Origin: Methanofastidiosum sp.
GTDB lineage: Archaea; Methanobacteriota_B; Thermococci; Methanofastidiosales; Methanofastidiosaceae
Length of the DNA: 64,000 bases
Reading direction: 5' to 3'
NCBI GenBank assembly: GCA_013178285.1
Contig: JABLXD010000002.1
Span: forward strand, 1-64,000
Shown in pieces: positions 10,535 through 54,299 of the stretch. How positions within the stretch are numbered: the first letter of the stretch is position 1; each line of letters begins with the position of its first letter. The notes under the pieces are model-generated. The model did no database searches. It was not told the origin of the DNA and saw only the letters and a program-made list of their open reading frames with translations. The position numbers and the translations under genes are program-made.

Positions 10535-11341
10535 CTAATATGCCCTAGGATAAGACCCCAAAACTTTAACAGAAAAAATCGAAGATAGTTCTTTTAGAGT
10601 CTGACTAATTTTCTTATCTTTGGTGTGGCCTTTAAAATCAATGAAAAAAATGTATTCTCCCATTTTCTTCTTTGAAGGTCTTGACTCGATTTTAGTCATG
10701 TCAATGCCAGCGTCATAAAAAGGTTTTATAACAGAGTATAAAACTCCCGGCCTATTAACACTTGGAGATACTACAATGCTAGTTCTATCCTTTCCAGTTG
10801 GCAGTGTGCTTTGATTGCCAACAACAAAAAATCTTGTGAAGTTGAGTTTTTCATCTTGTACATCTTTTTTCAATAGCCTTAAATTGTAGATTTCAGCGGC
10901 AAATTCAGATATAAGTGCTGCGTATCGATTATCTTTTCTATTTGAAAGTTCAATTGCCGAAATTGCATTTGAAGAAGTTTCATGTATTTCGACGTTTGGC
11001 ATATAGTTTCTGACAAATTTTTCACATTGTGAAAGAGTGAGACTATGAGAATACAACACTTCGATATCTTCCAATTCCCCCCAACATGCAAGATTATGGT
11101 GAATAGGTAAAAGATACTCTTTGTTAATCTTTAGATTGAATTCAATAAGGCTATCAAGTGTCTGGGATACTCCTCCAACAAGAGAATTCTCTACGGGAAC
11201 AACGCCCCCCTCACATTCACTGTTCTCAACTGCATTGAATACTTCCCATATGCTTCTTTTGAATAAAACCTCATCTGCGCCTAAGAGTAAAGAAGTTTCA
11301 TGAGAAAAAGTACCTTTTGGCCCTAAAGTTGAAACCTTCAT
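10535..11341 (-). CDS. pheA: Prephenate dehydratase
   Basis: The 268-residue enzyme converts prephenate to phenylpyruvate, the last carbon-skeleton step to phenylalanine. It opens with STLGPKGTFSHE and has VPVENSLVGGV and the RFFVVG motif with a preceding Thr that is essential in the family. The C-terminal third (from DRTSIVVSP) is an ACT domain with the ESRPSKKKMGEYIFFIDF motif that binds phenylalanine for feedback control. It is a stand-alone dehydratase with no fused chorismate mutase; that activity is encoded at the front of the same operon. Its ATG overlaps the tyrA stop by four bases (ATGA). It is the last gene of the aro operon. Confidence 0.95.
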   Translation of the reverse strand: MKVSTLGPKGTFSHETSLLLGADEVLFKRSIWEVFNAVENSECEGGVVPVENSLVGGVSQTLDSLIEFNLKINKEYLLPIHHNLACWGELEDIEVLYSHSLTLSQCEKFVRNYMPNVEIHETSSNAISAIELSNRKDNRYAALISEFAAEIYNLRLLKKDVQDEKLNFTRFFVVGNQSTLPTGKDRTSIVVSPSVNRPGVLYSVIKPFYDAGIDMTKIESRPSKKKMGEYIFFIDFKGHTKDKKISQTLKELSSIFSVKVLGSYPRAY

Positions 11342-12168
11342 TCGCTCACCATCCTTTTGATCAATATATTGCTCTCTTTTTCAGCTTTTTCAGTGAACTC
11401 GCCCAAATACTCAGAGGCTTCTTCAAAGAATTTTATGAATCCTTCTCTATCTCTATCTTCAATTTTCTTGAATAACGCCTCGGCTGTTTGGAGATACTGT
11501 GATACTATTTCATGTGTTTTTGGATTTAAAAGGGAGATGTCTGCATAAAGTTCAGGCTCTTGATTTAGGATTCTGCCAGCCATGTCCAATGTAAGCCTAT
11601 ATACTGGGCTAGTACAGTCAAAACTTTTTTTTATATCAAAATCCAAATCTTTTAAGGAATGACAAAGAACTATCGCAGAAAAATGAGTAAGACCTTGAAT
11701 TACTCCCATCATTTTATCGTGAGTTTCTGGAGTCATTTCAACTATTTTTGCTCCCCTTTTGGTAAGCATCGAGTAAATCATTTGGTACAAATCTCCATTT
11801 GTTATTCTTTCAGGACATAGTATTATCGTCTGACCTTTGATATCTCCAATTGAAGGTGCAAATAGAGGATGGGTTCCCAAAACATCTGCTTTTGATTTTA
11901 GCATTTCATCTATTGGGCCTACTTTAAGAGAGGTTAGATCCATGAAAAGTTTTCCTTCGCCCATGAAAGGGACTATTTCTCTTATGACCCCTATTGTAGA
12001 TTTAATTGGAACAGATACAATTACAATATCACTTTTTCTGATAAGCTCTTCTTTAGAAAGAGATGTAGATCTTGATGAAACGATTACTTGAAATCCTTCC
12101 TCTTCAAATATTTTTTTAAATAGGCCACCAAGTTTTCCAGTACCACCAATAATACCGACTACAGTCAC
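11338..12168 (-). CDS. tyrA: Prephenate dehydrogenase
   Basis: This 276-residue protein has an N-terminal Rossmann fold (GIIGGTGKLGGLF) for NAD(P), followed by SVPIKSTIGVI, LGTHPLFAPS and a helical C-terminal domain with GVIQGLTHFSA. These match archaeal TyrA, which oxidises and decarboxylates prephenate to 4-hydroxyphenylpyruvate. The length indicates a dehydrogenase without fused mutase or ACT domain. Translation starts at GTG 12168, which overlaps the aroC stop as GTGA. It lies in the aro operon between aroC and pheA, so both branches after chorismate are co-transcribed. Confidence 0.93.
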   Translation of the reverse strand: MTVVGIIGGTGKLGGLFKKIFEEEGFQVIVSSRSTSLSKEELIRKSDIVIVSVPIKSTIGVIREIVPFMGEGKLFMDLTSLKVGPIDEMLKSKADVLGTHPLFAPSIGDIKGQTIILCPERITNGDLYQMIYSMLTKRGAKIVEMTPETHDKMMGVIQGLTHFSAIVLCHSLKDLDFDIKKSFDCTSPVYRLTLDMAGRILNQEPELYADISLLNPKTHEIVSQYLQTAEALFKKIEDRDREGFIKFFEEASEYLGEFTEKAEKESNILIKRMVSE

Positions 12169-13247
12169 AAGAACCCTCCTATCGATTTCTGCAAGAGCAA
12201 ATGATCTAGAAGTGTAACTGCTACCATTGCTTCACACACGGGATTAATTCTAGGAATTGCACAAGGATCATGCCTTCCCCCAATTTCAATTGATTTTTCA
12301 TTTCCTTCAACATCAACTGTTTTTTGTTTTTTAGAAATGGAAGGTATTGGTTTTACTGCAACTCTTACAACAATATCTTCACCATTAGAGATGCCCCCTA
12401 GGATTCCCCCCGCTCTGTTTGTCATAAATCCTTTTGAATCCATCTGATCATTGCTTTCTGACCCCAATAAGCTTGAAAGACCGAATCCCTGGCCAAATTC
12501 AACCCCTTTGACTGCACCTATGGACAAGAGACCTTTTCCAATGCCAGCTTCAAGCTTGTCAAAAACTGGTTCACCCAATCCAGCAGGGATGTTTTTGGCA
12601 ACTATCTCAACAATTCCTCCGACAGATTCTCCGCGGGATTTTGCATCTAGAATCTCTTGAGCCATTTGTTCAGATATTTTTTTATCGGGGCACCATAGCC
12701 TATCATTTATTATCTCTTCTCTTTTCAATGAGCTAGCATCAATTCGGGGTATTTTTATTTTTCCAATTGCTTTTGTATAAGAAAATAGTTCAAAATTATC
12801 AATCTCAGATTCCAATACTTTTCTTGCAACTGCACCTGCTGCAACCCTAGCAACTGTCTCTCTCCCAGAAGATCTTCCCCCGCCCCTATAATCATAGAGC
12901 CCATATTTCTTAAAGTAAGTGTAATCTGCATGACCAGGCCTAAATACTCCTTTTAAATTTTCATAAGAGGAAGAGTCAACATCTTTATTTTTTATTATAA
13001 TAGAAATAGGAGTCCCAAGGGTCTTCCCTTGAAAAACACCCGACACTATCTCACAATTGTCCCCTTCTTTTCGTGATGTTGAAAGTCCATCACTTTTAGG
13101 TTTTCTAAGAGATAATTCCTTATTTATTTCTTCTTCAGTAATACTAATCCCGGGTGGGCATCCGTCAATAACTACGCCTAATGCTTTACCGTGTGACTCC
13201 CCCCAAGTGGTTATTCTAAATAATTTACCATAAGTATTTCCGCCCAT
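12165..13247 (-). CDS. aroC: Chorismate synthase
   Basis: The 360-residue protein carries the family signatures GESHGKALGVVIDGCPPG near the N-terminus, RPGHADYTYFKKYG, the flavin-binding RGGGRSSGRETVARVAAGA, and near the C-terminus GRHDPCAIPRINPV. It makes chorismate from EPSP using reduced FMN. Length is normal for the family. The ATG overlaps the aroK stop as TAATG. It acts in the cytoplasm at the end of the shikimate pathway encoded by this operon. Confidence 0.97.
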   Translation of the reverse strand: MGGNTYGKLFRITTWGESHGKALGVVIDGCPPGISITEEEINKELSLRKPKSDGLSTSRKEGDNCEIVSGVFQGKTLGTPISIIIKNKDVDSSSYENLKGVFRPGHADYTYFKKYGLYDYRGGGRSSGRETVARVAAGAVARKVLESEIDNFELFSYTKAIGKIKIPRIDASSLKREEIINDRLWCPDKKISEQMAQEILDAKSRGESVGGIVEIVAKNIPAGLGEPVFDKLEAGIGKGLLSIGAVKGVEFGQGFGLSSLLGSESNDQMDSKGFMTNRAGGILGGISNGEDIVVRVAVKPIPSISKKQKTVDVEGNEKSIEIGGRHDPCAIPRINPVCEAMVAVTLLDHLLLQKSIGGFL

Positions 13248-13759
13248 TAGACCACGCCCCTTTTTTCAATCTCAAATAAGATTTTATCGCAGACCTCGTA
13301 GACACTTATGTCGTCTGTATCTATAATTATATCTGCTATTTTTTTATAAACTGGCATTCTTTCAGCCATGATTAATTCAATTTCAGATTTTGAATCATGA
13401 TTAGTAAGGGAAGGCCTAGGCGCGTCTTTTTCCATTCTATCTTTCATTGTAGATATATCTGCTTTTAGCAAAATAAAGATAGAGCCTTTCAATGATTCAA
13501 CATTTTCTCTATTCATCAACGCACCGCCGCCTAAAGAAATAACGGCATTGCCCTCTTTTGAAACGTCTATAATGACTTCCTTCTCTTTTAATCTAAAATA
13601 TTCCCAGCCATTTTCATTTATTATTTCTGGAATAGTTTTTGATTCTCTTTTTTCTATTAATCGGTCAGTGTCAAAAAAAATCCTATCAGTTATCTCTGAC
13701 AAATGAAGGCCAACTATAGTTTTCCCAACACACCTTAACCCAAAGAGAACTATATTCAA
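13247..13759 (-). CDS. aroK: Shikimate kinase of the bacterial P-loop type
   Basis: This 170-residue kinase has a Walker A loop GLRCVGKT at the N-terminus, the shikimate-binding DTDRLIE, the ISLGGGA motif, and a C-terminal half like bacterial AroK. Most archaea instead use an unrelated GHMP-superfamily shikimate kinase, so a bacterial-type enzyme is notable here. The start is TTG at 13759, which overlaps the aroA stop (TTGA). Its position between aroA and aroC supports the function. Confidence 0.92.
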   Translation of the reverse strand: MNIVLFGLRCVGKTIVGLHLSEITDRIFFDTDRLIEKRESKTIPEIINENGWEYFRLKEKEVIIDVSKEGNAVISLGGGALMNRENVESLKGSIFILLKADISTMKDRMEKDAPRPSLTNHDSKSEIELIMAERMPVYKKIADIIIDTDDISVYEVCDKILFEIEKRGVV

Positions 13760-15036
13760 TTGATTCCCTCACATATTTTTGAAAAATCTTCCCAAAATTT
13801 AGGGTATGATTTTGAAACACAATCCGGATCACGAATCTTTATCCCCTCGATAAAAAGCCCAGCTACAGCAAAAGACATTGCCATACGGTGGTCTTTATAA
13901 GTTTCAATTTCGGCACCAGATAGTTTTCCTGGAATTATAATTATGTAGCCATCTCCTTCGTCTACCTTACATCCAATCTTTGTGAGCTCATTTGCAACTG
14001 CACTTAGCCTATCAGTTTCTTTATATCTTAGTGTTTCAATGTTTTTTATTTTAGTTGGGCCTTTTGCAAAGGCTGAAACAACTGCCAAAGTTGGAACTAT
14101 ATCGGGAGACTTTTTCATGTCAATTTCAATACCTTTAAGTTCTCCGCCCCTTACTATTAATGAGTTATCGTTCCACTCTATCTTGCACCCCATATTTTCT
14201 AAAATATTTACAAATGCCTTATCGGCCTGTTTGGAATCTTTATTAAGATTCTCTATAATTAGTCTCCCCCTACTTATGGCCGCAATCGCCATAAAATATG
14301 AGCAATTTGAGAAATCCCCTTCAACTATATATTTTTGGCCCACATACCTTGAAGGATTAATTAAAAATTCAGAGTAATCTTTTCTTTGAACTGGGACTCC
14401 AAATTTATTCATAACGTCTATTGTCATCTCCACATAGGGGCTTGATGGTATTTGCCCAGTAATCTTAATTTTCATATAGGGTTTTGAATAAGGTGAAGCC
14501 AAAAGTAAAGCACTAAGATACTGACTGCTTTGGCTTGGCTCAAGTAATGTCTCCCCACCTATAATCCCATTTGACGATATTCTAACTGGGGGACATCCTT
14601 TGTTTGAGTCAATTGTCACCCCTAGTCTTTTTAGAGAATCTTCAAGACCTTTGACGGGCCGTTTTCTTACTTCTTCGTCACCATCAATGGTAACAGTTCC
14701 ATTTACAAGAGAAGCTACGGCCATGAGGAATCTAAGTGTTGTCCCAGAATTACCAATGTAAAGTGGAGATGCTGGTTCTTTCATTGCCCCACCACGTCCC
14801 TCTACATTTAAAATAATTCCATCTTTATTCGACTCTTCACTTATTATTATTCCGAGTTTTTTTAGTGCATCAATCGTATAATTAATATCGTCTGAAAATA
14901 GAGGATCTACAATCTTTGATTCTCCCTCTGAAAGAGCGGCAATGAAAAGAGATCTATGGGTATAACTTTTAGAAGGCGGTGCTTTTAATCTACCATCGAC
15001 TTCAAAATTTAATTTTTTTATCTCTTTAATTTCCAT
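13756..15036 (-). CDS. aroA: EPSP synthase (3-phosphoshikimate 1-carboxyvinyltransferase)
   Basis: The 426-residue protein shows the two-domain EPSP synthase fold signatures: PPSKSYTHRSLFIAALSEG near the N-terminus, LYIGNSGTTLRFLMA, SSQYLSALLLASP, and LRYKETDRLSAVANEL near the C-terminus with DHRMAMSFAVAGL. It joins PEP to shikimate-3-phosphate. The ATG at 15036 lies 11 bases inside the end of the upstream aroDE frame. Length is typical. Confidence 0.97.
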   Translation of the reverse strand: MEIKEIKKLNFEVDGRLKAPPSKSYTHRSLFIAALSEGESKIVDPLFSDDINYTIDALKKLGIIISEESNKDGIILNVEGRGGAMKEPASPLYIGNSGTTLRFLMAVASLVNGTVTIDGDEEVRKRPVKGLEDSLKRLGVTIDSNKGCPPVRISSNGIIGGETLLEPSQSSQYLSALLLASPYSKPYMKIKITGQIPSSPYVEMTIDVMNKFGVPVQRKDYSEFLINPSRYVGQKYIVEGDFSNCSYFMAIAAISRGRLIIENLNKDSKQADKAFVNILENMGCKIEWNDNSLIVRGGELKGIEIDMKKSPDIVPTLAVVSAFAKGPTKIKNIETLRYKETDRLSAVANELTKIGCKVDEGDGYIIIIPGKLSGAEIETYKDHRMAMSFAVAGLFIEGIKIRDPDCVSKSYPKFWEDFSKICEGIN

Positions 15037-16531
15037 TTTGTTCGCCCCTCAACTTTAAAGCCTCTCTCGATAATTTTTCCATTTCTTCATAAGAAGGTTT
15101 TATTCCAGTCCATAGCTCAAATTGGGCCATTGCCTGTCCAATGTACATATCCAATCCATTTGCAATTTTTGCCCCTTGTTTATTGGACATTTTTAATAAC
15201 TTTGTATTTATGGGACTATAAACTGCATCAAAAACTGTTACACCAGAGAGGTCTTTATCAAAAAATGAATCTCCCATTGGGCAGTTGTTCTCTTCTGGAA
15301 ACATTCCAATTTTTGTGGCATTAATTAGGATATCAAAATCAACTTTGGTTCTATCTTCCCACAAAACTGTTTCCGCCCCAACTTTTTCTGAAAGTTCTAG
15401 CGCCTTTTTATTATCCCTATTTGAAATAATTATTAGGCCTTTTCTATCTGCTATTCCAAAAGCTATGGCTTTTCCAGCACCTCCTGCTCCAAGGATTAAT
15501 ACCCTTTTATTCTTTATTTGATCCAATTTTTCGATAGAGTATACCGCCCCTATCCAATCGGTGTTTGTGCCAAAAACCCCCCCTCTAGTTTTCTTTATTG
15601 TATTTATTGCACCAATTTTTAGGGCCATTTCGTCTATATTGTCCAAGTAGGGGATAATTTTTTCCTTGAAAGGCATTGTGACGCATAGACCAGTAAACAT
15701 ATCTTTATAATTATCCATGAACTTCTTTATGTCATCGACTAAAAAGTTCAGGTAAACTGCTTGTATATTGTAATGAGAAAATAATTTATTGTGAACATAG
15801 TATCCTATACTTTCCTTAACGGGATTTCCAATAAGTCCATAAATATCAAAATTTTCATTAATGGCATCAACTCTGTATACCTCTTTTAGTATCTCTATTG
15901 GTATCTGCCCAGGAGCGGTATGGCCAACTCCTTTTAGTGGCGCATAAGAAGTGAAGCTCCCCCACGATCTGCAAAGGATTCTGCTTATCTCTCCTCGCTC
16001 GCCCATTAAAAAAGAAATGATTTTTTTGTCAGTATTTATTTTAGAAGATAAAAGATCTTTAATTATCAAATTGTCAGAAATATCTTTGGCATAAGTTACT
16101 ACCTTAACTATGCCAGGAAAGTTATCCTTTATTTCTGACAATATTTCATTAATATTTGGAGGAGTATTCCCAAAATTATGATAAGACACAATTATTTTTG
16201 TTTCTGAATTTAACTCTCTTTTTTTTCTAAGGAGTAGGTTTAAGGGATCTATAGAAGAATATTCTATATCTATAAATCCAAACTCATTTTTTATTGCTTC
16301 AATCAATGGAATAATTCTCTCAGACTCGCTTCCTTCAAATAATCCTCCTTCATCTTTTTTTCTATTGGTTACTATTATCCTTTTCTTGTCGAATTTATTG
16401 CCAATTTCTGGAATATTCAAATCAGGTACCAAATCTACCCTTAGTTCTGCTAATTCCCCCTTGGATAGTGCTTTTTCTAAAAGATTTATTGCCTCTTTTT
16501 GGGATGAAGGAATTATAGAAGCAGTAATCAC
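15026..16531 (-). CDS. aroDE: Fused type I 3-dehydroquinate dehydratase and shikimate dehydrogenase
   Basis: This 501-residue protein joins two consecutive pathway enzymes. Residues 1 to about 220 are a type I dehydroquinase: ELRVDLVPDL, the catalytic His in VSYHNF, the Schiff-base lysine in KVVTYAK and the GERGEISRILCRSWGSFTSYAPL segment. Residues from about 228 are shikimate dehydrogenase: YGLIGNPVKES, VTMPFKEKI with its lysine, GAINTI, GTNTDWIG and a nucleotide-binding LGAGGAGKA. The order matches the plant bifunctional DHQ-SDH. Translation starts at GTG, overlapping the aroB stop (GTGA). The shikimate-binding loop reads NPVKESIGYYVHN rather than the common NPVxHSxSPxxHN, so one substrate contact may differ. 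Confidence 0.94.
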   Translation of the reverse strand: MITASIIPSSQKEAINLLEKALSKGELAELRVDLVPDLNIPEIGNKFDKKRIIVTNRKKDEGGLFEGSESERIIPLIEAIKNEFGFIDIEYSSIDPLNLLLRKKRELNSETKIIVSYHNFGNTPPNINEILSEIKDNFPGIVKVVTYAKDISDNLIIKDLLSSKINTDKKIISFLMGERGEISRILCRSWGSFTSYAPLKGVGHTAPGQIPIEILKEVYRVDAINENFDIYGLIGNPVKESIGYYVHNKLFSHYNIQAVYLNFLVDDIKKFMDNYKDMFTGLCVTMPFKEKIIPYLDNIDEMALKIGAINTIKKTRGGVFGTNTDWIGAVYSIEKLDQIKNKRVLILGAGGAGKAIAFGIADRKGLIIISNRDNKKALELSEKVGAETVLWEDRTKVDFDILINATKIGMFPEENNCPMGDSFFDKDLSGVTVFDAVYSPINTKLLKMSNKQGAKIANGLDMYIGQAMAQFELWTGIKPSYEEMEKLSREALKLRGEQNGN

Positions 16532-17622
16532 AGGAATCCATTCTCCACTAATGAGTTTTTTACTATCTTATCTTCAACTTTTATCTCGTATACAGCTTCT
16601 CCTATACCTTTTACCAAGGAATATTCGGCTACTCCTTTCCTAGATTTTTTATCCGAAGTAGTTTTTCTTATTATTTCGTCTGCAGATAATTTGAAAGATT
16701 TATCAAGTAATTTTGATTTTTTTAGAAGTGCTAAAATTCTATCTTTTTCATCGAATTTTAAAATGCCAATTTTTTCTGAGATTAACGTTTCTACTGCCAT
16801 CCCTAAGCCAACTGCTCTTCCGTGGGGAATCTCAAAATTTGAAAGGATTTCTATTGCATGTCCAATTGTGTGGCCAAAATTTAATATCTTTCTGAGGCCA
16901 GCTTCTCTCTCATCTATTTCTACGACTCGGGCCTTAACTTTAAGTGATGAAACAATTGCCTTTTCTATATATCCTTTTTCTAGATTGAGCACTCTTTCAA
17001 TATTAGATTCTAAATAGTTGAAAAGTTGGAGGTCTTGTATTATTGCAGCCTTTATTATTTCAGCAAATCCATTGATTATTTCTTCATTTGGTAGTGTCTT
17101 CAAAAAATCTGTATCTATGTAAACTTTACTTGGAGGGTAAAATGCTCCCAAGAGATTCTTACCTGTAGGGTGATCTATACCAACTTTGCCACCTATACTG
17201 CTGTCAACTTGGGAAAGAAGTGTTGTGGGAATCTGTATGAAGGGTACGCCCCTCATATAAGTTGCAGCTATAAAACCTGCAAGATCACCAGTTACCCCAC
17301 CGCCTAAAGCAATAATCAAGGTATCCCTTCCAAATCCACGTTCGAAAAGTTTGTCTTCTAATATTTCTTTTGTTTTTCTATTTTTTGATTCTTCGCCTGC
17401 TTTGAAACTCAATGCAAAAACTCTATCAATTTTTCCAAGTTTTTGAAGAAAATCGCCATAAATACTTTCTACATTTGAGTCAGTTATTATGGCAATTTTT
17501 GAATCCTTATAGTCATCCAATATTTCTTCGAATGCCTTTTGAACTATATTACTACCAATAGATATATCGTATTGACTTTTTCCAGTTGCTACCTTGATTA
17601 TTTCTGTTTCAGGAATAGTCAT
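16528..17622 (-). CDS. aroB: 3-dehydroquinate synthase
   Basis: This protein of about 364 residues has the classical AroB motifs IALGGGVTGDLAGFIAATYMRG, PTTLLSQVDSSIGGKVGIDH, KNLLGAFYPP, GFAEIIKAA and a metal-binding LNFGHTIGHAIE. It converts DAHP to 3-dehydroquinate. Several archaea lack this enzyme and use the aminodehydroquinate route; here the standard bacterial-like route is present. ATG at 17622 is chosen because it follows the DAHP synthase stop by one base with GGGAA upstream; a TTG at 17640 would overlap that gene. Confidence 0.95.
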   Translation of the reverse strand: MTIPETEIIKVATGKSQYDISIGSNIVQKAFEEILDDYKDSKIAIITDSNVESIYGDFLQKLGKIDRVFALSFKAGEESKNRKTKEILEDKLFERGFGRDTLIIALGGGVTGDLAGFIAATYMRGVPFIQIPTTLLSQVDSSIGGKVGIDHPTGKNLLGAFYPPSKVYIDTDFLKTLPNEEIINGFAEIIKAAIIQDLQLFNYLESNIERVLNLEKGYIEKAIVSSLKVKARVVEIDEREAGLRKILNFGHTIGHAIEILSNFEIPHGRAVGLGMAVETLISEKIGILKFDEKDRILALLKKSKLLDKSFKLSADEIIRKTTSDKKSRKGVAEYSLVKGIGEAVYEIKVEDKIVKNSLVENGFL

Positions 17623-17623
17623 T

Positions 17624-18646
17624 CTATATTTCCCGTCCAAACATTCTACATATATATTTTATTTCTCCCATCAATCCATGAAGGTCTGCAGTGCTTATTG
17701 TCTGGTCAGCATCACTTATTGCTTTCTGAGGGTCGGTGTGCGCTTCAATAGTTACCCCATCAGCACCACAAGCAATGGCTGCAAGTGCCATTGGCTTTAC
17801 AATATCTCTTCTTCCTGTACCGTGACTTGGATCTACAATTACAGGCAGGTGACTTTCACTTTTTAATACCGGCACAATGCTTAAGTCCAAGGTATTTCTA
17901 GTGAAATCTGAAAATGTTCTTATTCCTCTTTCACAAAGCATGACGTTATTGTTTCCTCCAGCAAGTATATACTCTGCAGCCGATAAGAATTCCTTCAATG
18001 TTGCCCACATTCCTCTCTTAAGGAGAACTGGTTTATCACATTTTCCTAGCTCTTTTAATAATGCGTAGTTCTGCATATTTCTAGTTCCAACTTGTAGTAT
18101 GTCAGCGTATTCAGACACTAGAGTTACATCTCTTGTGTCCATAACTTCGGTGCATATAGGTAGTCCAGTTTCCTCTTTTGCAGCTAATAAAAATTTAAGA
18201 CCTTCTTCCCCAAGGCCTTGGAAATCTTTAGGCGCTGTACGAGGCTTGAATGCGCCTCCTCTTAAAATTGTGGCACCCGAACTTTTTACCTCTTTTGCAA
18301 TGTTAACAATCTGCTCTTTACTTTCAACTGTGCATGGACCTGCCATTACAATAATCTTTTTACCGCCTATTTCAATTCCATCTACATCTATAACTGTATT
18401 TTCCTGATTAAAGTCCCTTGAAACTAGTTTGTAAGGTTTTGTTACACGTACTACTTGCTCTATGTAAGGTGTTGCCCTTAATCTTTCAACATCACTTTCA
18501 TCTATCGAAGAAACATCTCCGATTACTCCTATTATGGTCCTATTTTCTCCTTTAGACAGGTGAGTATTAAAGCCAAGGTCTTTAACCTTCTTGATTGTTT
18601 CTTGTACTTGGCTTTCATCTGCTCCCATCTTCATTATTATTATCAT
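17624..18646 (-). CDS. aroF: DAHP synthase, second tandem copy
   Basis: This 340-residue protein catalyses the first step, PEP plus erythrose-4-phosphate to DAHP. Residues 1 to about 70 form a ferredoxin-like/ACT-type regulatory domain as in the Thermotoga enzyme. The TIM barrel carries [47 protein letters not shown] and [10 protein letters not shown]. It lies directly after a paralogue of identical length; the catalytic cores are nearly the same while the N-terminal domains have diverged. Its ATG follows the previous stop with no gap, using GGGAGGG inside the upstream gene. Differential feedback by tyrosine and phenylalanine is a reasonable inference. Confidence 0.94.
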
Positions 18647-19669
18647 TTATAATTCCCTCCCAACTACTTTTGCTATCTGTCTTACATCTTCCATAAGTTT
18701 GGAAAATGCACTTAAAGAAATAGTTTGATCTGCATCGCTTATCGCCCTATCAGGATCCGGATGTGTTTCAATTAATAATCCGTCTGCTCCACAGGCTATT
18801 GACGCTTTACTCATAGGTAGAACTAAACTCCTCCTGCCAGTACCATGACTTGGGTCTGATACAATGGGTAAGTGGCTCTCATCCTTTATTGCAGGGATAA
18901 TACTAAGATCTAGCGTATTCCTTGAGTAATCTGAGAAAGTCCTGATTCCTCTTTCGCATAATATGACGTTTTCATTGCCTCCGTTCATTATATATTCTGC
19001 AGCCCCAAGAAATTCTGCCATTGTGGCCCACATTCCCCTCTTAAGAAGTACGGGCTTGTCGCATTTTCCTAGCTCTTTTAGTAAAGTGTAATTTTGCATG
19101 TTTCTAGTTCCAACTTGAAGCACGTCTGCATATTCAGATAAAAGTCCTACATCTCTTGCATCCATAATTTCTGTTACGATTGGTAATCCTGTTTCTTCCT
19201 TTGCCTCGTAAAGTAACTTTAGGCCTTCTTCCCCAAGCCCTTGGAAATCTTTAGGCGAGGTACGGGGTTTGAATGCGCCTCCTCTTATCATGCTTGCTCC
19301 AGCTTTCTTTATCTTCTCTGCAACTTCCATGATTTGTTCTCTGTTTTCAACTGAACAAGGGCCTGCAAAAACAACAACTTTCTTTCCGCCTATTTTTACT
19401 CCATCTACGTCAATTATAGTTTGTTCATTTTTGAAGTCTTTAGAAACTAGTTTGTAAGGCTTTGAAACAAATACTGTGTTTTCTACACCTTTCATTGCCC
19501 TAATTCTGAAGAAATTATCTTCTCCAATTTTACTAATGTCGCCTATTACAGCAACTACTACCCTTTCGGCACCCAGATTCAATTGGGTTCTAAGGCCAAG
19601 AGATTCTATTGTATCTATAACTCTATTAATATCCTCCTCCTCGGCCTTTGCTTTCATTATCACAATCAT
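18647..19669 (-). CDS. aroF: DAHP synthase, first tandem copy
   Basis: This is the upstream paralogue of the following gene, also 340 residues with an N-terminal ferredoxin-like regulatory domain (first 70 residues, with VVVAVIGDISKI) and a barrel with [38 protein letters not shown] and [10 protein letters not shown]. All metal and phosphate ligands I recognise in the family are kept in both copies, so neither looks degraded. It starts at ATG 19669 and overlaps the chorismate mutase stop by four bases. Tandem duplication followed by regulatory divergence is the likely history. Confidence 0.94.
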   Translation of the reverse strand: MIVIMKAKAEEEDINRVIDTIESLGLRTQLNLGAERVVVAVIGDISKIGEDNFFRIRAMKGVENTVFVSKPYKLVSKDFKNEQTIIDVDGVKIGGKKVVVFAGPCSVENREQIMEVAEKIKKAGASMIRGGAFKPRTSPKDFQGLGEEGLKLLYEAKEETGLPIVTEIMDARDVGLLSEYADVLQVGTRNMQNYTLLKELGKCDKPVLLKRGMWATMAEFLGAAEYIMNGGNENVILCERGIRTFSDYSRNTLDLSIIPAIKDESHLPIVSDPSHGTGRRSLVLPMSKASIACGADGLLIETHPDPDRAISDADQTISLSAFSKLMEDVRQIAKVVGREL

Positions 19670-19950
19670 TTATGTTCCTCCAAAATATTATTCTGTATAT
19701 TTTTTGAGTGGGAAATGATGGCTCCGAAAATATCTGAAACAAACTTTTCATCAAGATTATTTCTTCTAGCCTCATTTTCAAGTTTCAAGAAAAGCGTTCT
19801 CTCTCTATTTCTATCCTCTACAGGAATGCCCTTTTCTTTTTTTAGGGCCGCTATCTTCTTTGCTACTTCCATTCTTTTGGAAAGCAGACCTATAATATTC
19901 TCATCGATTCCATTAATTTCTTCTCTAAGAGTCTCTAAAGAACTCTCCAT
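19666..19950 (-). CDS. Chorismate mutase, AroQ class, first gene of the aro operon
   Basis: The 94-residue all-helical protein starts LETLREEINGIDENIIGLLSKRM and has AKKIAALKKEKGIPVEDRNRE, the standard AroQ-class pattern with active-site Arg and Lys residues. It rearranges chorismate to prephenate for both tyrA and pheA. ATG at 19950 is chosen because AAGGAGG lies nine bases upstream (19959-19965); an in-frame TTG at 20016 would add 22 residues with no family counterpart. Placing the mutase first, and DAHP synthase next, resembles bacterial arrangements in which the mutase can modulate DAHP synthase. Confidence 0.93.
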   Translation of the reverse strand: MESSLETLREEINGIDENIIGLLSKRMEVAKKIAALKKEKGIPVEDRNRERTLFLKLENEARRNNLDEKFVSDIFGAIISHSKNIQNNILEEHK

Positions 19951-20008
19951 AAAAATAACCTCCTTAAAAGGCGATTGGAAAGAGAAACTAAGGATTCGGC
20001 CAGTGAAA

Positions 20009-20061
20009 GGTATCAATACCTAAAGCTAAAATAATAATATAATTTTCTTGATACCGATTCG
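20009..20061 (-). promoter_or_regulatory. aro operon promoter with palindromic operator
   Basis: The minus strand has a TATA-like AAATTATATTA at about 20034-20044. The predicted transcription start about 26 bases on falls inside the palindrome GGTAT-CA-ATACC (20009-20020). The arm GGTATCAA (20009-20016) recurs inverted as TTGATACC at 20048-20055, just upstream of the TATA box, and is followed by CCGA-T-TCGG (20053-20061). Paired sites flanking an archaeal core promoter suggest a repressor, probably responding to aromatic amino acids. The symmetry is observed; the regulator is unknown. Confidence 0.5.
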
Positions 20062-20175
20062 GAAGACCTAATCTTTCCCATCATAAAAATTTAACTAAAA
20101 TCAGTATTTAAAACTTTCGGGAATCTTTTTATTATAGGCATTAGATTTATAAGTAATTTTTTTACCTTTTCACTA

Positions 20176-47017: not shown

Positions 47018-47674
47018 TTACAATATTTTTTCAAGCAATATCTTGGGATTTTCTTTTATTACTTGTATTGCAGCTTCTTCTTTTAGGCCTGCACCTAAAG
47101 CTACTGTATATGCAAATTCCTGAGTAATTAAGTTGCTTGGAGAATGCGTATCTGTATCCAAAATAAAGTTTTCGCCCAAAGAGGCAACACGTCCATTTCC
47201 AATATTGTGGCCCCCTCTTGCAGTAATCTCTAAGAAGATATCTGATTTATTTGCAAGTTTGGCGTCTTTTTCTTCAATTATTCCTGGATGCGCAAGGATA
47301 TCAACTTCGCCACTTTCAATTGCACTTCTATTTGTTCCTGGCATTACAGGCTCTACAGGTGTTTCCCCATGAACAACCACTATTTTTGCCCCAAGTTTTT
47401 TTGCTTTCAATGCAAGTTTTTTAATAGTCTCTGGAGGGACATGAGTAATTTCAACTCCAGGAATTACTGTTATATCCCAATATTGATTGAGTTCTTCAGA
47501 AACTTTTACGAGATTGGGAACAATAAACTCAATATTTGAAGCATCTGCATGATCTGTTAATGCTATAGCTTTGTGGTCCAAAGCTCTTGCACGTCTTACA
47601 AGTTCTGTAGGTATAAGCTCACCATCAGAAAAGATTGTATGTGTATGAAAATCATATCTTTTTCCTAAATCCAT
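47018..47674 (-). CDS. PHP-family phosphatase, probable histidinol-phosphate phosphatase
   Basis: The 218-residue PHP protein has the metal ligands YDFHTHTIFSDGEL, IALTDHADA, PGVEITHV, VVVHGETP, LAHPG and LDTDTHSPSN. It is the last gene of the histidine operon, 4 bases after hisIE, and no other histidinol phosphatase is in the operon. A PHP enzyme does this step in several lineages (HisK type), so histidinol-phosphate is the likely substrate. The assignment of substrate rests on context. An AGGAAGTGA ribosome-binding site precedes ATG 47674. Confidence 0.82.
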   Translation of the reverse strand: MDLGKRYDFHTHTIFSDGELIPTELVRRARALDHKAIALTDHADASNIEFIVPNLVKVSEELNQYWDITVIPGVEITHVPPETIKKLALKAKKLGAKIVVVHGETPVEPVMPGTNRSAIESGEVDILAHPGIIEEKDAKLANKSDIFLEITARGGHNIGNGRVASLGENFILDTDTHSPSNLITQEFAYTVALGAGLKEEAAIQVIKENPKILLEKIL

Positions 47675-47678
47675 TTAT

Positions 47679-48302
47679 TCACTTCCTTCTTTTTTTTAAT
47701 TCCTCTAATACTGATTCCAGTTTGATGTCTCTTTCAACTAATAAAACAAATAAGTGATAGATTAAATCAGAAGCTTCTTCAACTGTTCTATTCTTGTCTT
47801 CAGAATAGGAGATAATTACTTCGCTTGACTCCTCGCCAATTTTTTTAAGTAGGAGATTCTTATCAGTAAGCAATTTTGTTGTATACGAATCTTTTGGAAG
47901 CTCTTTCTTTCTTTTTTCAATTAATTTGTAAAGTTCATCCAAAATATAAAGCCCGCCTTCGAAGGATTTTTCACCAATTATTTTTCCATCAAGTTTTCTA
48001 AAATAACATGTTGGGTATCCTTCGTGGCATGCTGCACCAACTTGCTCAACTAAGATTAAAATAGAATCTGCATCACAATCATATCTAATCTCTTTGACCT
48101 TTTGGATATTGCCAGATGATTCTCCCTTAAACCAGAATTTCTGTCTGCTCCTTGACCAAAAACAAGTTCTGCCAGTTTCAAGTGTCTTCTTAAGAGATTC
48201 CTCGTTCATATAGGCCGTCATAAGTACTTCTTTTGTATTATACTCCTGAACTATAGCAGGGATAAGTCCTTTTTCATCCCACTTTAAATTAAACTCACTC
48301 AT
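47679..48302 (-). CDS. hisIE: Fused phosphoribosyl-AMP cyclohydrolase and phosphoribosyl-ATP pyrophosphatase
   Basis: The 207-residue protein fuses two consecutive steps. Residues 1 to about 110 are His[50 protein letters not shown] with its zinc cysteines. Residues from about 120 are His[42 protein letters not shown]. The fusion is common in bacteria and less so in archaea. ATG overlaps the hisF stop (ATGA). Confidence 0.95.
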
Positions 48303-49054
48303 AATCTTACCGAAACATTTTTTGATCTAAGGTATTCTTTTACCTTTCTAATTGAGTGTTCTTCATAGTGAAAAATTGAAGCTGCAAGTGCTGCATCGGC
48401 TTTGCCTTTAGTCAATGCATCATATATGTGTTCAGCATTTCCTGCCCCGCCTGAAGCTATAACAGGTATCGTCACAGCTTCTGAGATGGCTTTTGTCAGT
48501 GATATATCATAGCCATCTTTTGTACCATCTGCATCCATGCTTGTAAGAAGAATTTCCCCACATCCAAGATTTTCAGCGTTCTTTGCCCATTCAATTGCAT
48601 CTATGCCTGTTGGTGTCCTTCCTCCATGTGTATATACTTCCCAACTGTTTCCTTTTCTTTTAGCATCAATTGCTAGAACTATGCATTGACTTCCAAATAT
48701 TTTAGAGGATTCCTTTATCAAATTGGGATTCTGAACTGCAGACGTATTGAGACTTACTTTGTCTGCACCTGCACGTAATATCGCCTTTATATCTTCAATA
48801 TTTCTTAATCCTCCCCCTACAGTAAATGGAATAAATACTACATCTCCAGTCCTTTCAACTACATCAACCATAATATTCCTTTTATCCGATGAAGCTGTGA
48901 TATCAAGGAACACCAATTCATCCGCACCTTTTTCATCATAAAGCTGTGCCATCTCTACTGGATCTCCTGCGTCTCTGATATCTACAAATTTTATTCCTTT
49001 TACAACTCTTCCCTGGTCAACATCAAGACAAGGAATAATTCTTTTTGCATGCAT
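48299..49054 (-). CDS. hisF: Imidazole glycerol phosphate synthase, cyclase subunit
   Basis: The 251-residue TIM barrel starts [18 protein letters not shown] with the catalytic Asp, and has [50 protein letters not shown] and [10 protein letters not shown]. It forms the synthase with HisH (encoded in the same operon). ATG overlaps the hisB stop as TAATG. Confidence 0.97.
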
Positions 49055-49626
49055 TAAATCACACCCTTTGTTGAAAGTAGATCAATTCTCTCATTGAATG
49101 AAGTCGCCATCAAGAGAGCTTTTCCGAATGATTTGAATACCGCTTCCATCTTGTGGTGGTCATCATCTCCATAAAACTCCTTTATGAAAAGATTCAATGG
49201 AACTTTCTGGGCAAAAGAATCGAGAAAATGCAAGAATAGATCTGGTGATACTTCTTCAATCTTATCAAACTTGAAATTTAGGTCAAATTTTGTATAGTGT
49301 CTTCCCCCAATATCAAGGGAAGACATGACTAGACTATCGTCCATGGGTACTGTGGCAAAGCCCACCCTATTGATACCTTTTTTATCCCCTATAGCCTCTG
49401 AGAAGGCCATCCCCATAGCTATCCCTATGTCTTCAACAAGGTGGTGAGTTAAATCGCCTTCCGCCTTTATCTCTAAATCAAAAAGGCTATACCTAGAAAA
49501 CGTTTCAAGCATGTGATCAAAAAATTTCTTTGATGTTGAGATTTTATATTTACCCTGACCGTCAATATTCAATTTAATTTTAATATCAGTTTCCTTTGTT
49601 TTTCTCTCTATCTTTGCTTGTCTCAA
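49054..49626 (-). CDS. hisB: Imidazoleglycerol-phosphate dehydratase
   Basis: The 190-residue protein has the metal-binding motifs [30 protein letters not shown] and [17 protein letters not shown]. It is the stand-alone dehydratase without a fused phosphatase, which agrees with a separate PHP gene at the operon end. The start is TTG at 49626 with GGTGATTTG upstream. Confidence 0.97.
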
Positions 49627-49632
49627 AACAAA

Positions 49633-50343
49633 TCACCCAAAAACTTTTCTTACTTCTTTTAAGTCAATTTTATTAGTGTAAATTGCTGTACCAACGACAG
49701 CTTTGTTAATCCCTATTTTATCAAGATCTATTAAATTGTCAATTGATGAAATTCCACCTGATGCAATTATTTCCACATCAGTTATTGATAAAAGCTTTTT
49801 ATATAATTCTATATCTGGCCCTTTCATTCTTCCCTCTACACCAATGCTTGTGATAAGGTAAGAGGATGCGTACTCTTCCAGATTTTTTGTTGCATCAAAT
49901 ATTGATAGCCCAGAATCTTGAGTCCATCCAGAAATTGACACCTCTTCTCCTTTAACGTCTAAAGCTATGACTATCCTTTTCTTTCCAAATTGATCTTTTA
50001 TGCTTTTTAGAAGTTCAAGATTTTTAATTGCTGACGTTCCAATTATGAGTTTATCTGCGCCTGCATCTATCAGTTCCCGAAATATTTCTATGCTTCGTAT
50101 TCCTCCACCAACTTCTGCCGGGATTTTGACTTCTGAGAGAATTTTCTTTATTATGTCCCTGTTAGTATCTTTATTATAGATTGCAGCATCAAGATCAATC
50201 AAATGCAAGTAATCCGAATATTCTGCCCACTTTCTTGCAATTGTTAGAGGGTCTGTGTCCTCAAACACTTTAGTAGCAGGATCTCCCCCTACAAGTTGGA
50301 CACATTTCCGATTAAGGATGTCTACTGCGGGCAAAACTTTCAT
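49633..50343 (-). CDS. hisA: ProFAR isomerase
   Basis: The 236-residue half-barrel-duplicate protein starts KVLPAVDILNRKCVQLVGGDP and has IPAEVGGGIRSIE, ADKLIIGTSAI and a phosphate site near the end (IIASGGISSIDNLI). It converts ProFAR to PRFAR. Its ATG overlaps the hisH stop (ATGA). Confidence 0.96.
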   Translation of the reverse strand: MKVLPAVDILNRKCVQLVGGDPATKVFEDTDPLTIARKWAEYSDYLHLIDLDAAIYNKDTNRDIIKKILSEVKIPAEVGGGIRSIEIFRELIDAGADKLIIGTSAIKNLELLKSIKDQFGKKRIVIALDVKGEEVSISGWTQDSGLSIFDATKNLEEYASSYLITSIGVEGRMKGPDIELYKKLLSITDVEIIASGGISSIDNLIDLDKIGINKAVVGTAIYTNKIDLKEVRKVFG

Positions 50344-50951
50344 ATTGTATTCTCCACTATACTTATGTAATTTTTAAGAAGTTTTAATCCTGATTCTCCA
50401 CTCTTTTCAGGGTGGAACTGTGTACCATAGATAAACTCCTTTGCAACTATTGATGGAAACTTTATTCCATATTCAGTTTCTCCAAGGGCATAATCAGGCC
50501 CACAGAATGGAGCATATGAGTGGACAAAATAGAAATAAGACTCATTTTTTATTCCCATGAGAAGCGGATCATCATCTAAAAATTCAATGCTATTCCAGCC
50601 CATGTGCGGAACTTTTAATCCTTCTGGTAGTTTTTTTACCGAGCCAGGTATAAGATTTAATCCCTTGAAGAATCCATTTTCTTCACTATCTGAGAAAAGC
50701 ATCTGCATTCCTAGACATATCCCAAGTATAGGTTTGGTCTCTACCTCTTTTTTTAATACTTTAATAAAAGGGGCTAGATTTTTCATTCCATCCTCGAAAG
50801 CTCCTACTCCCGGCAGAATAAAGCCATCACAATTATTAAAATCCTCTTCTTTATCTATAAAAATGGGTTCTGCTTTTAGAAATCTAAAGGCTTTGTATAC
50901 ACTCTTTAGATTCCCCATACCATAGTCAATAATACCAATTTTAACAGACAT
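50340..50951 (-). CDS. hisH: Imidazole glycerol phosphate synthase, glutamine amidotransferase subunit
   Basis: The 203-residue protein starts IGIIDYGMGNLKSV, has the nucleophile elbow GICLGMQMLF (Cys about 79) and GTQFHPEKSGESGL with the catalytic His and Glu. It supplies ammonia to HisF. ATG at 50951 lies inside the end of hisC with an 11-base overlap. Confidence 0.97.
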   Translation of the reverse strand: MSVKIGIIDYGMGNLKSVYKAFRFLKAEPIFIDKEEDFNNCDGFILPGVGAFEDGMKNLAPFIKVLKKEVETKPILGICLGMQMLFSDSEENGFFKGLNLIPGSVKKLPEGLKVPHMGWNSIEFLDDDPLLMGIKNESYFYFVHSYAPFCGPDYALGETEYGIKFPSIVAKEFIYGTQFHPEKSGESGLKLLKNYISIVENTI

Positions 50952-51990
50952 TTAATATCTCCCTTAAGCTAGAAATGAACTTAACACACTCTTCATACGT
51001 TCCTACAGATACCCTAAGGTAATTCTTACCTTCAAAGTACCGTATTAGGATATTTCTCTTCAACAATCCTTCGTATATTGTTCTTGGATTTTCTGCTTCA
51101 AACAGTATGAAGTTGGCATTTGATTGAATCGGCTTTATCCCTTTTATCTCCTTCATTGCACCATAAAGGTATTTTCGGTTTTCCTTTATTTTTTTAACAG
51201 CATCTTTCATGAAATCTTCGTGCTGAATTGCCATTTCAACTACCTTCATAGAGATAAGATTTAGATTATATGGAAGCATAACTTTGCTCATAGATTCAAT
51301 TAGCGTTTCTGATGCTACGCAATATCCTGTTCTAAATCCTGCAAGCCCAAATGCTTTTGAGAATGTCTTCATGATAATCAGATTATCATACTCATTCAAT
51401 AAGCCTAATCCAGAATGGCCAGAGAATTCAGCATATGCTTCATCAAGGATTACTAGCATCCCAGTATCCAATATCGGCCTAATTTCCTCATCTGGATAAG
51501 CAATTCCCGTAGGATTATTGGGGCTACAAATAATTGCAATCTTGGCATTTTTTGCCTCCATTATAATTTTTTCAAATGGAAGGGTATAATCACTATTAAG
51601 CGAGAGGATTATAGGAACTCCTGAGTACACCCTTGCCACGGAAGAGTAAAGTGAAAAGGTAGGGGAGGGGATCAAAACTTTATCAAGAGGAGATATGAAT
51701 GCTTTGCCTATTGTGTCAAGGATCTCATCGCTGCCATTCCCAACGAGTACATTTTCTTTTTCAAATCCAATATACTCTGCAATTTTGTTTCTTATTTCCG
51801 AATTTGTAACTTCAGGATATCTGTTGAGAGGCATTGATAAGAGACTATCATGTAAGGCCCAAACTACCGCTTCGTTTTTCCATGGTAGTTCATTAGCGTG
51901 TAATCTAGTTTGATTTCCATCTAATATTGAAACTTCTGAGGAGTATGGCTCAAGGCCCTCTAATAGATCCCTATCAAATTTACTTTTCAT
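50941..51990 (-). CDS. hisC: Histidinol-phosphate aminotransferase
   Basis: The protein of about 349 residues is a fold-type I PLP enzyme: NPLNRYPE-like (SMPLNRYPE), NVLVGNGSDEILD, SPNNPTGIAYP, LDEAYAEFSG and the PLP lysine in MKTFSKAFGLAGFRTGY. It acts before histidinol phosphatase. ATG at 51990 is chosen over TTG 51996; it overlaps the hisD stop by 11 bases. The enzyme may also serve the aromatic pathway, whose operon lacks an aminotransferase. Confidence 0.95.
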   Translation of the reverse strand: MKSKFDRDLLEGLEPYSSEVSILDGNQTRLHANELPWKNEAVVWALHDSLLSMPLNRYPEVTNSEIRNKIAEYIGFEKENVLVGNGSDEILDTIGKAFISPLDKVLIPSPTFSLYSSVARVYSGVPIILSLNSDYTLPFEKIIMEAKNAKIAIICSPNNPTGIAYPDEEIRPILDTGMLVILDEAYAEFSGHSGLGLLNEYDNLIIMKTFSKAFGLAGFRTGYCVASETLIESMSKVMLPYNLNLISMKVVEMAIQHEDFMKDAVKKIKENRKYLYGAMKEIKGIKPIQSNANFILFEAENPRTIYEGLLKRNILIRYFEGKNYLRVSVGTYEECVKFISSLREILNVC

Positions 51991-53245
51991 CTTCAAACCT
52001 CACATTTACAGCTTTTTCATGTGCAAATAATCCTTCTGATTTAGCAAGTGTTGAAACTGTAGGCCTATAAGTCTTTAGCCCTTCCTTTGTGACATACTGG
52101 AAGGTATACTTCTTCAAGAAATCGTCAACTGAAAGGCTTGAATAATACTTTGCAAATCCTGAGGTCGGAAGTACGTGATTTGTTCCCGATACATAATCTC
52201 CCATAGCTTCAGGAGAATATTCCCCAAGGAACACCGACCCTGCATTTTTGATTTTTGTGAGAAATGAAAATGGCTCCTTGACCATTATCTCAAGGTGCTC
52301 AGGTGCAAATTCGTTTGAAAGTTCTATTGCTTCATCTATTGAAGATATAATGAAAATGCCGCCCCTCTTTAGAGATTCTTCAAGAATTTCTTTTCTTGGT
52401 AGTACCTTAAGCTCCTTTTCTATTTCTTTCTGAACTTTTTCGGCTAGATTACCTGAAGTTGTCAAGAGATAAGCCGATGCAAGGGGGTCATGCTCAGATT
52501 GCGCTAGCATGTCTAAAGCTATGAATCTTGGATTAGAGCTTTCTTCAGCAATAATCATTACTTCACTTGGGCCTGCAGGAAATTCTGTAGGTGTTTCGAC
52601 AAGTTTTTTTGCCATTGCTACAAATCTATTACCCGGACCAACGATTTTTGAAACTTTCCTAATTGATTCAGTGCCGTATGCAAGAGCGGCTATTGCTTGA
52701 GCTCCCCCTACTTTGTAGATTTCATCTACACCTGCAATATCTGATGCTACTAATACTGCATCATTACATCTGCCATCTTTTCCAGGAGGTGTCACAACTA
52801 CGATTCTAGGAACTCCACATATTTTGGGAGGTATTGCGGCCATTAATACTGTAGAAGGATAAGTTGCCCTCCCTCCGGGCACATAAATGCCTGTGCTATC
52901 CAAGGGCAATATCATCTGCCCTGCAGTAATGCCTTTCTTTTCAAACAAAAATGATTGAGGGAGTTCTCTTCTGTGGAAGTCTTCGATATTATCTGCCGAT
53001 GTTTCAAGAGCTTGAATCAATTCAGTGTCTACGTTGTCATAAGCTTCTGCTATCTCGTCTTGAATTACAAGGAAATCATCTATTCTGACTCCATCAAATT
53101 TCAATGTGTATTCCTTGAGTGCTTCGTCTCCCCTTTTTTCGATGTCATCTAGAATTGACTTTACATAACCATCATCTTCTAGTAAGATCTTTCTCTGTTT
53201 ATTTTTCTCAAATAACTCTTTTGAGCCTTCATAAATTTCAATCAA
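51980..53245 (-). CDS. hisD: Histidinol dehydrogenase
   Basis: The 421-residue enzyme has the family motifs VPGGRATYPSTVLMAAIPP, VGGAQAIAALAYGTESI, VGPGNRFVAMAK, PAGPSEVMIIAEE, AQSEHDPLASAYL with the zinc histidine, and EFAPEHLEIM. It oxidises histidinol to histidine. The start is TTG at 53245, directly following the hisG stop. Confidence 0.97.
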   Translation of the reverse strand: MIEIYEGSKELFEKNKQRKILLEDDGYVKSILDDIEKRGDEALKEYTLKFDGVRIDDFLVIQDEIAEAYDNVDTELIQALETSADNIEDFHRRELPQSFLFEKKGITAGQMILPLDSTGIYVPGGRATYPSTVLMAAIPPKICGVPRIVVVTPPGKDGRCNDAVLVASDIAGVDEIYKVGGAQAIAALAYGTESIRKVSKIVGPGNRFVAMAKKLVETPTEFPAGPSEVMIIAEESSNPRFIALDMLAQSEHDPLASAYLLTTSGNLAEKVQKEIEKELKVLPRKEILEESLKRGGIFIISSIDEAIELSNEFAPEHLEIMVKEPFSFLTKIKNAGSVFLGEYSPEAMGDYVSGTNHVLPTSGFAKYYSSLSVDDFLKKYTFQYVTKEGLKTYRPTVSTLAKSEGLFAHEKAVNVRFEDEK

Positions 53246-54103
53246 TTAATTCACCAACCTCTCTATTGGAGTAATAAGAATCCCAGTTCCGCCCATCCTC
53301 TTTAATTTTTGGATTGTTTCGGATACCTGCTTTTCATCCACCACAAAGTGTGCTGCGACAAGGGATTCTTTTGAGATAACATGCATCACTGTTGGACCTC
53401 CAAGACCGTGGAATTCTTTTTCAAATAAAGCCAAGGATTTTGTCGGAAGGTTTACCATGATGTACTTTTTACCTTGTGCGTCTAATACGCTTCTTATAGA
53501 GGAAGATAGGAGTTCTATCTCTTCACTCTTTTCTTTAAGACTATCTTTATTTGCTATAAGAACTGCTTCTGATTCAATAATTTTAGATATCGGTTTTAGA
53601 TTGTTCATTACTAAGGTTGTCCCCGTACTCACTATATCTGAGATTAAATCAGATACACCAAGGTATGGGGCGATTTCAGTTGAACCCGATACTTCAATTA
53701 CTTTTAGACTAATACCTTTATTTTTAAAAAAGTTATCAGTTACATTTGGAAATTCTGTTACTATTTTTATTCCATCTTTTATATCCTGAAATGACTTTAT
53801 TGAAGAATTTTTAGGTGCTGCAACGGTGAGTGTGCATTTTCCAAATCCCATTTTTTGTAAAATTTCAACTTCTGCCTTTCTTTCCATAATTATATCAAGT
53901 CCAGTTATGCCTATATCGACAACTTGATCCTGAACATATTCAGGTATGTCTTGAGTTCGCACAAATACCGCTTCAATATTTTTTTCTTCGATAAGTGAAA
54001 ACAACTTCCTACCGCTATCCTCAAACTCGTAACCGGATCTTTTTAATATGTCAAGACAGGGGTTTGATAATCTCCCCTTTTTAGGAATAGCTATTTTTAG
54101 CAT
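53246..54103 (-). CDS. hisG: ATP phosphoribosyltransferase, long form
   Basis: From ATG 54103 the protein has about 285 residues. It starts LKIAIPKKGRLSNPCLDILKR, has VDIGITGLDIIME, the PRPP-binding segment VSTGTTL, and a C-terminal domain (GGPTVMHVISKES, RMGGTGILITPIERLV) found only in the long form that is inhibited by histidine without HisZ. GGAGG at 54111-54115 lies before the ATG, so the in-frame upstream extension (to 54175) is rejected as untranslated leader. It opens the histidine operon. Confidence 0.96.
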   Translation of the reverse strand: MLKIAIPKKGRLSNPCLDILKRSGYEFEDSGRKLFSLIEEKNIEAVFVRTQDIPEYVQDQVVDIGITGLDIIMERKAEVEILQKMGFGKCTLTVAAPKNSSIKSFQDIKDGIKIVTEFPNVTDNFFKNKGISLKVIEVSGSTEIAPYLGVSDLISDIVSTGTTLVMNNLKPISKIIESEAVLIANKDSLKEKSEEIELLSSSIRSVLDAQGKKYIMVNLPTKSLALFEKEFHGLGGPTVMHVISKESLVAAHFVVDEKQVSETIQKLKRMGGTGILITPIERLVN

Positions 54104-54110
54104 GAAAATA

Positions 54111-54203
54111 CCTCCGCCAAAAACGGCGTAATTAATGATGGTGAGCAGTACATGACAAAATAATAGAAGAATCAAACTTAACGTTTTCGTTAATTATGCC
54201 CAT
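54111..54203 (-). promoter_or_regulatory. Candidate histidine-operon attenuation leader
   Basis: After a TATA-like TATTTTAAA (about 54222-54230, minus strand), ATG at 54203 begins a 23-codon ORF. It starts MGIINENV and ends SCTAHHH, the three His codons (CAC CAT CAT, 54143-54135) being directly before TAA (54134-54132). After four bases a CGCC-GTTTTT-GGCG hairpin (54128-54115) forms, whose last G is the first base of the hisG GGAGG site. The start codon is about 23 bases past the TATA centre, so the leader could be translated without a 5' UTR. A dyad TTAACG-N4-CGTTAA (54178-54193) lies within it. Inferred: stalling at His codons when histidyl-tRNA is scarce keeps the hairpin open and hisG translated. 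Confidence 0.55.
54132..54203 (-). CDS. his leader peptide candidate (23 aa, ends HHH)
   Basis: The ORF reads ATG GGC ATA ATT ... CAC CAT CAT TAA. It has no separate family and would not be expected to have a function other than regulation. It is in a different frame from hisG and does not overlap it; the stop is 28 bases before the hisG ATG. A weak GGAG is three bases before the ATG, but a leaderless start is more likely. Terminal His codons make it comparable in design to bacterial hisL. Confidence 0.5.
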   Translation of the reverse strand: MGIINENVKFDSSIILSCTAHHH

Positions 54204-54299
54204 ATACTCCACATATGCTTTTTAAAATATCAATTTTTAAGCATTGTGGTATGTAAAAGAGAAAGTTTTAAATATACAATTAAGTCGATAAAAAAAGAA

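Follow-up and report, generated by a model that had tools for sequence, protein, structure and literature searches.

In the methane-producing archaeon Candidatus Methanofastidiosum, the short open reading frames (ORFs) upstream of the his, trpB2, paaK and aro operons are most likely amino-acid-specific leader-peptide attenuators, and their comparison among related genomes provides very strong evidence for ribosome-mediated attenuation specific to single amino acids in an archaeon. In all four operons, the leader has its own TATA-like element and ends in a run of His, Trp, Tyr or Tyr/Phe codons that matches the pathway encoded behind it, with the frame and the regulatory tail codons being kept while the remainder of the peptide drifts. 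Translating a codon-rich leader to control amino acid operons is textbook biology in bacteria. An initial annotation of the his locus had called comparable archaeal systems essentially unreported, and this was borne out: searches of the open literature, with subscription papers outside their scope, gave bacterial cases only, and the attenuation passages of reviews on coupling name no archaeal one. Because of this outcome, we call the putative Methanofastidiosum leaders a device of known type that is new to this domain of life. Genome comparison supports the sensor half of the device (a codon run read by the ribosome) well and the output half only weakly.

The his leader was found on the minus strand of the 64,000-nt stretch of DNA analyzed here (the window), whose genome falls in the same genus, Candidatus Methanofastidiosum, as the relatives detected through hisG. 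It is a 23-codon ORF, MGIINENVKFDSSIILSCTAHHH (54203..54132), that begins with an ATG at 54203-54201, ends with three His codons, CAC CAT CAT (54135..54143), and a TAA stop (54134-54132), and terminates 28 nt upstream of hisG. The stop is followed after three bases (T, T, A), rather than the four counted originally, by a CGCC-N6-GGCG hairpin (54115..54128; CGCC at 54128-54125, GGCG at 54118-54115) that directly precedes the hisG ribosome-binding site (RBS) GGAGG (54111..54115) and shares the single position 54115 with it. The hisG gene itself (53246..54103, minus strand, ATG at 54103) encodes a long-form ATP phosphoribosyltransferase, scoring above cut-off for TIGR00070 as well as for the C-terminal domain TIGR03455. 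Downstream, the operon is complete (hisG-D-C-H-A-B-F-IE), with ORFs for hisD, hisC, hisH, hisA, hisB, hisF, hisIE and a PHP-domain protein at 47018..53245 on the same strand; hisD, hisB and hisIE were confirmed with NCBIfam profiles and the remaining downstream genes were named from sequence. Upstream of the leader, a TATA-like element (GCTTAAAAAT, 54233..54242, minus strand) probably acts as the promoter of the leader-his operon. Its TTAAAA (54240-54235) lies 37 nt ahead of the leader ATG, and the core CACAATGCTTAAAA is kept in the genus relatives with one change in G003. This element predicts a transcription start near 54211, just 5' of the leader ATG. Apart from the spacing behind the stop, these elements, i.e., the ATG-started ORF with its terminal CAC CAT CAT and TAA, the one-base overlap of hairpin and RBS, the TATA-like element and the long-form HisG, are as the initial annotation had described them. 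An inverted repeat, CCACA...TGTGG, surrounds the promoter (window 54208-54249); it is kept in most relatives, G002 and G003 excepted, and is a possible operator.

The initial annotation had proposed aligning hisG upstream regions of relatives, and such an alignment shows that the His run is conserved while the other codons drift. It comprises all genus genomes with a readable his operon start (G000, G001, G002, G003, G006, G007, G008 and G009). Two consecutive His codons are present in all eight leaders and three in six, the others ending in HHQ (G002) and YHHN (G003); a ninth, partial copy in G008 likewise ends in HHH. One frame of 23-24 codons is open in every genome, the other two forward frames hold stops, and the G009 leader carries an insertion of exactly three bases within the ORF. 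The hisG RBS is invariant in the eight sequences, and the distance from the first His codon to the ACGCC of the hairpin is always 14 nt. Most changes in the body of the leader alter the amino acid, so this part of the peptide does not resemble a functional small protein.

In G006 and G007, shared lesions have broken and shortened hisG into a pseudogene (L030, L049, L064, L066), with leader, hairpin and RBS intact and followed by intact hisD and downstream his genes. Retention of these elements ahead of a broken gene suggests that the output may not be limited to hisG initiation. Nearly all genus genomes also possess a second long-form hisG, 35% identical and outside the his operon (L026 = G000:C7:51798-52658; L007, L008, L010, L014, L027-L029). 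G004 and G005 were found to carry no hisG other than this one, and in G006 and G007 no other copy is intact. Furthermore, two near-identical hisG copies (L003, L025) occur in the single assembled genome G008, perhaps reflecting two strains in one bin.

A second leader in the same window was noticed by reading upstream of the aro operon. This ORF, MGKIRSSESVSRKLYYYFSFRY (20013..20081, minus strand, with an extra in-frame ATG at 20084), ends in YYYFSFRY ahead of the operon and is conserved in eight genus genomes. Its Tyr-Tyr-Tyr-Phe codons, TAT TAT TAT TTT (20028..20039, minus strand), read YYCF in G001 and G009. Between leader and operon, AATCGCC...AAGGAGGTT (19957..19977, minus strand) forms a candidate RBS-sequestering hairpin of the first aro gene, which pairs in all eight sequences with one wobble change and no double change. 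In total, three helices of the aro upstream region pair in all sequences, yet scarcely vary. The operon (10535..19950, minus strand) contains ORFs for chorismate mutase, two DAHP synthases, aroB, aroDE, aroA, aroK, aroC, tyrA and pheA; chorismate mutase and the first DAHP synthase were confirmed by profile, and the other genes were named from sequence. The two DAHP synthase genes lie side by side (window 17624-19669).

Short ORFs in 1.83 of the 2.12 Mb of the genome (86%) were ranked by their amino acid runs; given this coverage, further leaders may exist. Two of the strongest matches precede genes of matching metabolism, namely a Trp run ahead of trpB2, encoding a TrpB-like enzyme, and a Tyr run ahead of paaK, encoding a phenylacetate-CoA ligase. 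The Trp leader ends in WWWRY (FWWWRY in the scan match) and was found in all nine genus genomes that cover the region. A WWW tail occurs only once among the 12,684 short ATG ORFs of the genome, this being the one ahead of trpB2, and of the 60 non-synonymous changes relative to G000, none falls in the last five codons. The Tyr leader ends in YCYYYGY (YCYYYYGY in the scan match), occurs in eight genus genomes and shows 48 non-synonymous changes relative to G000 with none in its last eight codons. A sodium/solute symporter and an ACT-domain protein, both named from sequence, are encoded downstream of paaK, and this operon may serve in aromatic amino acid salvage. In a second family of the order (G012, G015, G017 and G019; ligase 65-69% identical), an ORF of 28-30 codons upstream of the ligase ends in VYAYSY or YGYRY, so that a Y-x-Y-x-Y tail is present in all four genomes on leaders otherwise without similarity to that of the genus. 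Since this tail is found in four of the 12,684 short ORFs, its occurrence in all four genomes has a chance probability of ~1e-14, assuming independence of the four. Runs of Arg, Ile, Thr, Phe, Gln and others were treated as chance, their downstream genes being unrelated. No convincing leader was seen upstream of the paralogous paaK genes, of the ligases of a third family, or of hisG and trpB2 in Thermococcales. Likewise, no Trp leader was found ahead of trpEGDCFBA in G001, where the gene start is close to the contig end, and trpE of G003 seems truncated.

How far such tails exceed chance depends on the breadth of the comparison. HHH within the last ten codons is found in five of the 12,684 ATG ORFs of 15-40 codons of this genome, or ~4e-4 per 300-nt upstream region; judged in one genome alone, the tail ahead of hisG is only moderately beyond chance. 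Taken with its conservation and with the three further pathway-matched leaders, it is far beyond chance, and the original observation at hisG proves both correct and larger than stated. It is very improbable that these are ordinary short upstream ORFs, either with runs that arose by chance within conserved promoter or operator sequence or with a role in simple termination-reinitiation coupling. The his leader region, with a tRNA gene on one side, hisG on the other and 85% identity among relatives, would suit such a reading, but all four leaders match their pathway, the frame is open in every case and the tail codons are kept. Moreover, coupling in Haloferax fades at spacings not far from the 28 nt seen here (PMC12548453). 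Arrest of the nascent chain in response to the free amino acid, as in TnaC or SpeFL, is an improbable alternative as well: a few residues besides WWWRY (L, D and V) are constant in the Trp leader, as they would be in an arrest peptide, whereas runs of identical codons in an otherwise drifting sequence, such as Y-x-Y-x-Y in the second family, are better suited to codon sensing.

Under the attenuation model, the leader would be translated, and scarcity of the matching charged tRNA would stall the ribosome on the codon run. The stalled ribosome would then alter which helices form near the leader stop and the operon start and so raise expression, while with sufficient amino acid the ribosome would finish and depart, allowing the restrictive fold to return. 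For his and aro, this fold would most likely be the hairpin at the RBS of the first gene, i.e., translational control, which is favored by the lack of a conserved U-run between leader and RBS; for his, we rate this output at slightly below an even chance. The initial annotation had proposed that ribosomes waiting on the His codons melt the hairpin and free the hisG RBS. Its sensor part is strengthened by the conserved His run in a drifting body and by the sister leaders that match Trp, Tyr and Phe genes, whereas the output part is weakly supported. In its favor, the hairpin is paired in 100% of cells in all eight sequences, with three one-sided wobble changes and a loop that varies in sequence and length. 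Against it, hairpin and RBS share just one base, folding with a masked ribosome footprint gave no release of the hisG RBS in most species (small effects in G002 and G003), and the his region folds no better than shuffled sequences. The same masking had no effect in aro and mixed effects in paaK.

Assuming a bacterial-type footprint, which reaches ~15-17 nt ahead of the P site, a ribosome whose A site holds the first His codon would stop with its leading edge about at the hairpin base. Because of the 14-nt distance, a ribosome waiting there may not touch the hairpin, while one that has advanced to the second or third His codon would overlap the 5' arm; the geometry thus fits stalls at these two codons better than at the first. 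None of these stall positions would cover the hisG RBS itself, and initiation at hisG could thus still have room while a stalled ribosome holds the hairpin open.

Complementary segments are present in all four leader regions, with small covariation. In his, a helix between leader start and His codons is 86% paired and has two pairs with double changes, and covariation of the long-range pairing is absent. Pairing of the leader start with the 5' arm of the hisG hairpin, attractive by eye as an anti-sequestor, was rejected, being 86% paired without double changes. Compared to shuffles, fold z-scores are not significant for the his, aro and second-family paaK leaders and reach ~-2 to -4 in most trp and paaK leaders (8/9 for trp). 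In trp, the CTATGAG at the leader start has its complement, CTCATAG, behind the leader, and a hairpin begins at the stop codon; in G004, one base has been lost from each arm, turning the stop from TAA to TAG and keeping the helix. In paaK, GAGGGATTCAAT at the leader start and ATTGAATTCCCTC at the leader stop form a helix in which 98% of cells are paired, and the CCCTC of this helix could alternatively pair with GGGG of the gene's RBS, forming a possible switch.

The same codon sensor might instead act in all four operons through premature transcription termination, by a U-run or FttA-dependent polarity, without RBS masking. This is possible but rather unlikely as a general output. It agrees with a further hairpin followed by T7 in the Trp leader of G001 and G002, with a conserved hairpin region plus T7 in paaK, and with the retention of the leader ahead of the broken hisG of G006 and G007. 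However, the T-run of paaK lies after the RBS, G003 trp has no conserved U-run, and none was found between the his leader and hisG in the eight sequences, where the loop reads GTTTTT, ATTTT or TATTT (T5, T4 or T3) without conserved length. For trpB2 taken separately, premature termination is as likely as RBS masking, given the hairpin and U-run in some genomes.

The his locus resembles the bacterial his attenuator of the E. coli type in having consecutive His codons in a leader before the first his gene and hairpins behind it (PMC9413887), but differs in its archaeal host, in its His run, which consists of just the last three codons, and in that no terminator hairpin with U-run separates leader and hisG. 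RBS-sequestering attenuators, mentioned for some his operons in the same work, are alike in that the hairpin touches the RBS of the first gene; the his hairpin shares just one base with it, and release by a stalled ribosome is hypothetical. At the gathering threshold, an Rfam scan of the window, which holds the his and aro leaders, returned only tRNAs and 5S rRNA, with no known leader family and no T-box riboswitch.

Outside Methanofastidiosum, a peptide-pattern scan, which finds close relatives only, returned exclusively Bacteroidales HisG proteins, 38-41% identical and mostly over near full length, while Thermococci HisG is 35-42% identical over about 205 residues. Bacteroidales his operons have a conserved leader ending in YHHHHTCRS ~90 nt before hisG (L036-L065), and nearly all of these loci carry the MKRYTVSYHHHHTCRS type. 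It is therefore conceivable that Bacteroidota were the source of both the his operon and its attenuator, and that the archaeal leader is a modified relic. Transfer of his operon plus attenuator has been proposed among bacteria (PMC9413887), and we regard this origin, which is compatible with the attenuation model, as a tentative possibility. Both leaders have a His run ahead of related hisG genes, but their sequences are unrelated, and the archaeal leader differs in length and in spacing (28 nt compared to ~90 nt), lacks a terminator and is conserved in the genus; in the two Bacteroidales loci inspected, a T-run lies between leader and hisG. Furthermore, transfer leaves the trpB2 and paaK leaders unexplained, as these genes have orthologs across the archaeal order.

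TrpY, acting through the TRP box, controls archaeal trp genes, including trpB2, in Methanothermobacter. Five related genomes of other families carry one or two TGTACA repeats before trpB2 (L183-L187), which resemble this box, whereas seven Methanofastidiosum upstream regions have none and hold the WWW leader instead. The Tyr leader occurs in two families of the order, which would make it older than the genus. Taken together, these comparisons indicate that archaea probably own a native leader-peptide regulon, comprising at least four operons in one genus, with a Tyr/paaK leader common to two families and a trpB2 leader where related families have TRP-box-type control. If this is true, the device would have arisen or been recruited outside bacteria, archaeal leader translation and RNA folding would be coupled tightly enough to act as a sensor, and leader attenuation could replace repressor control. 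The four leaders, with eight to twelve natural variants each, form a compact set on which this can be tested.
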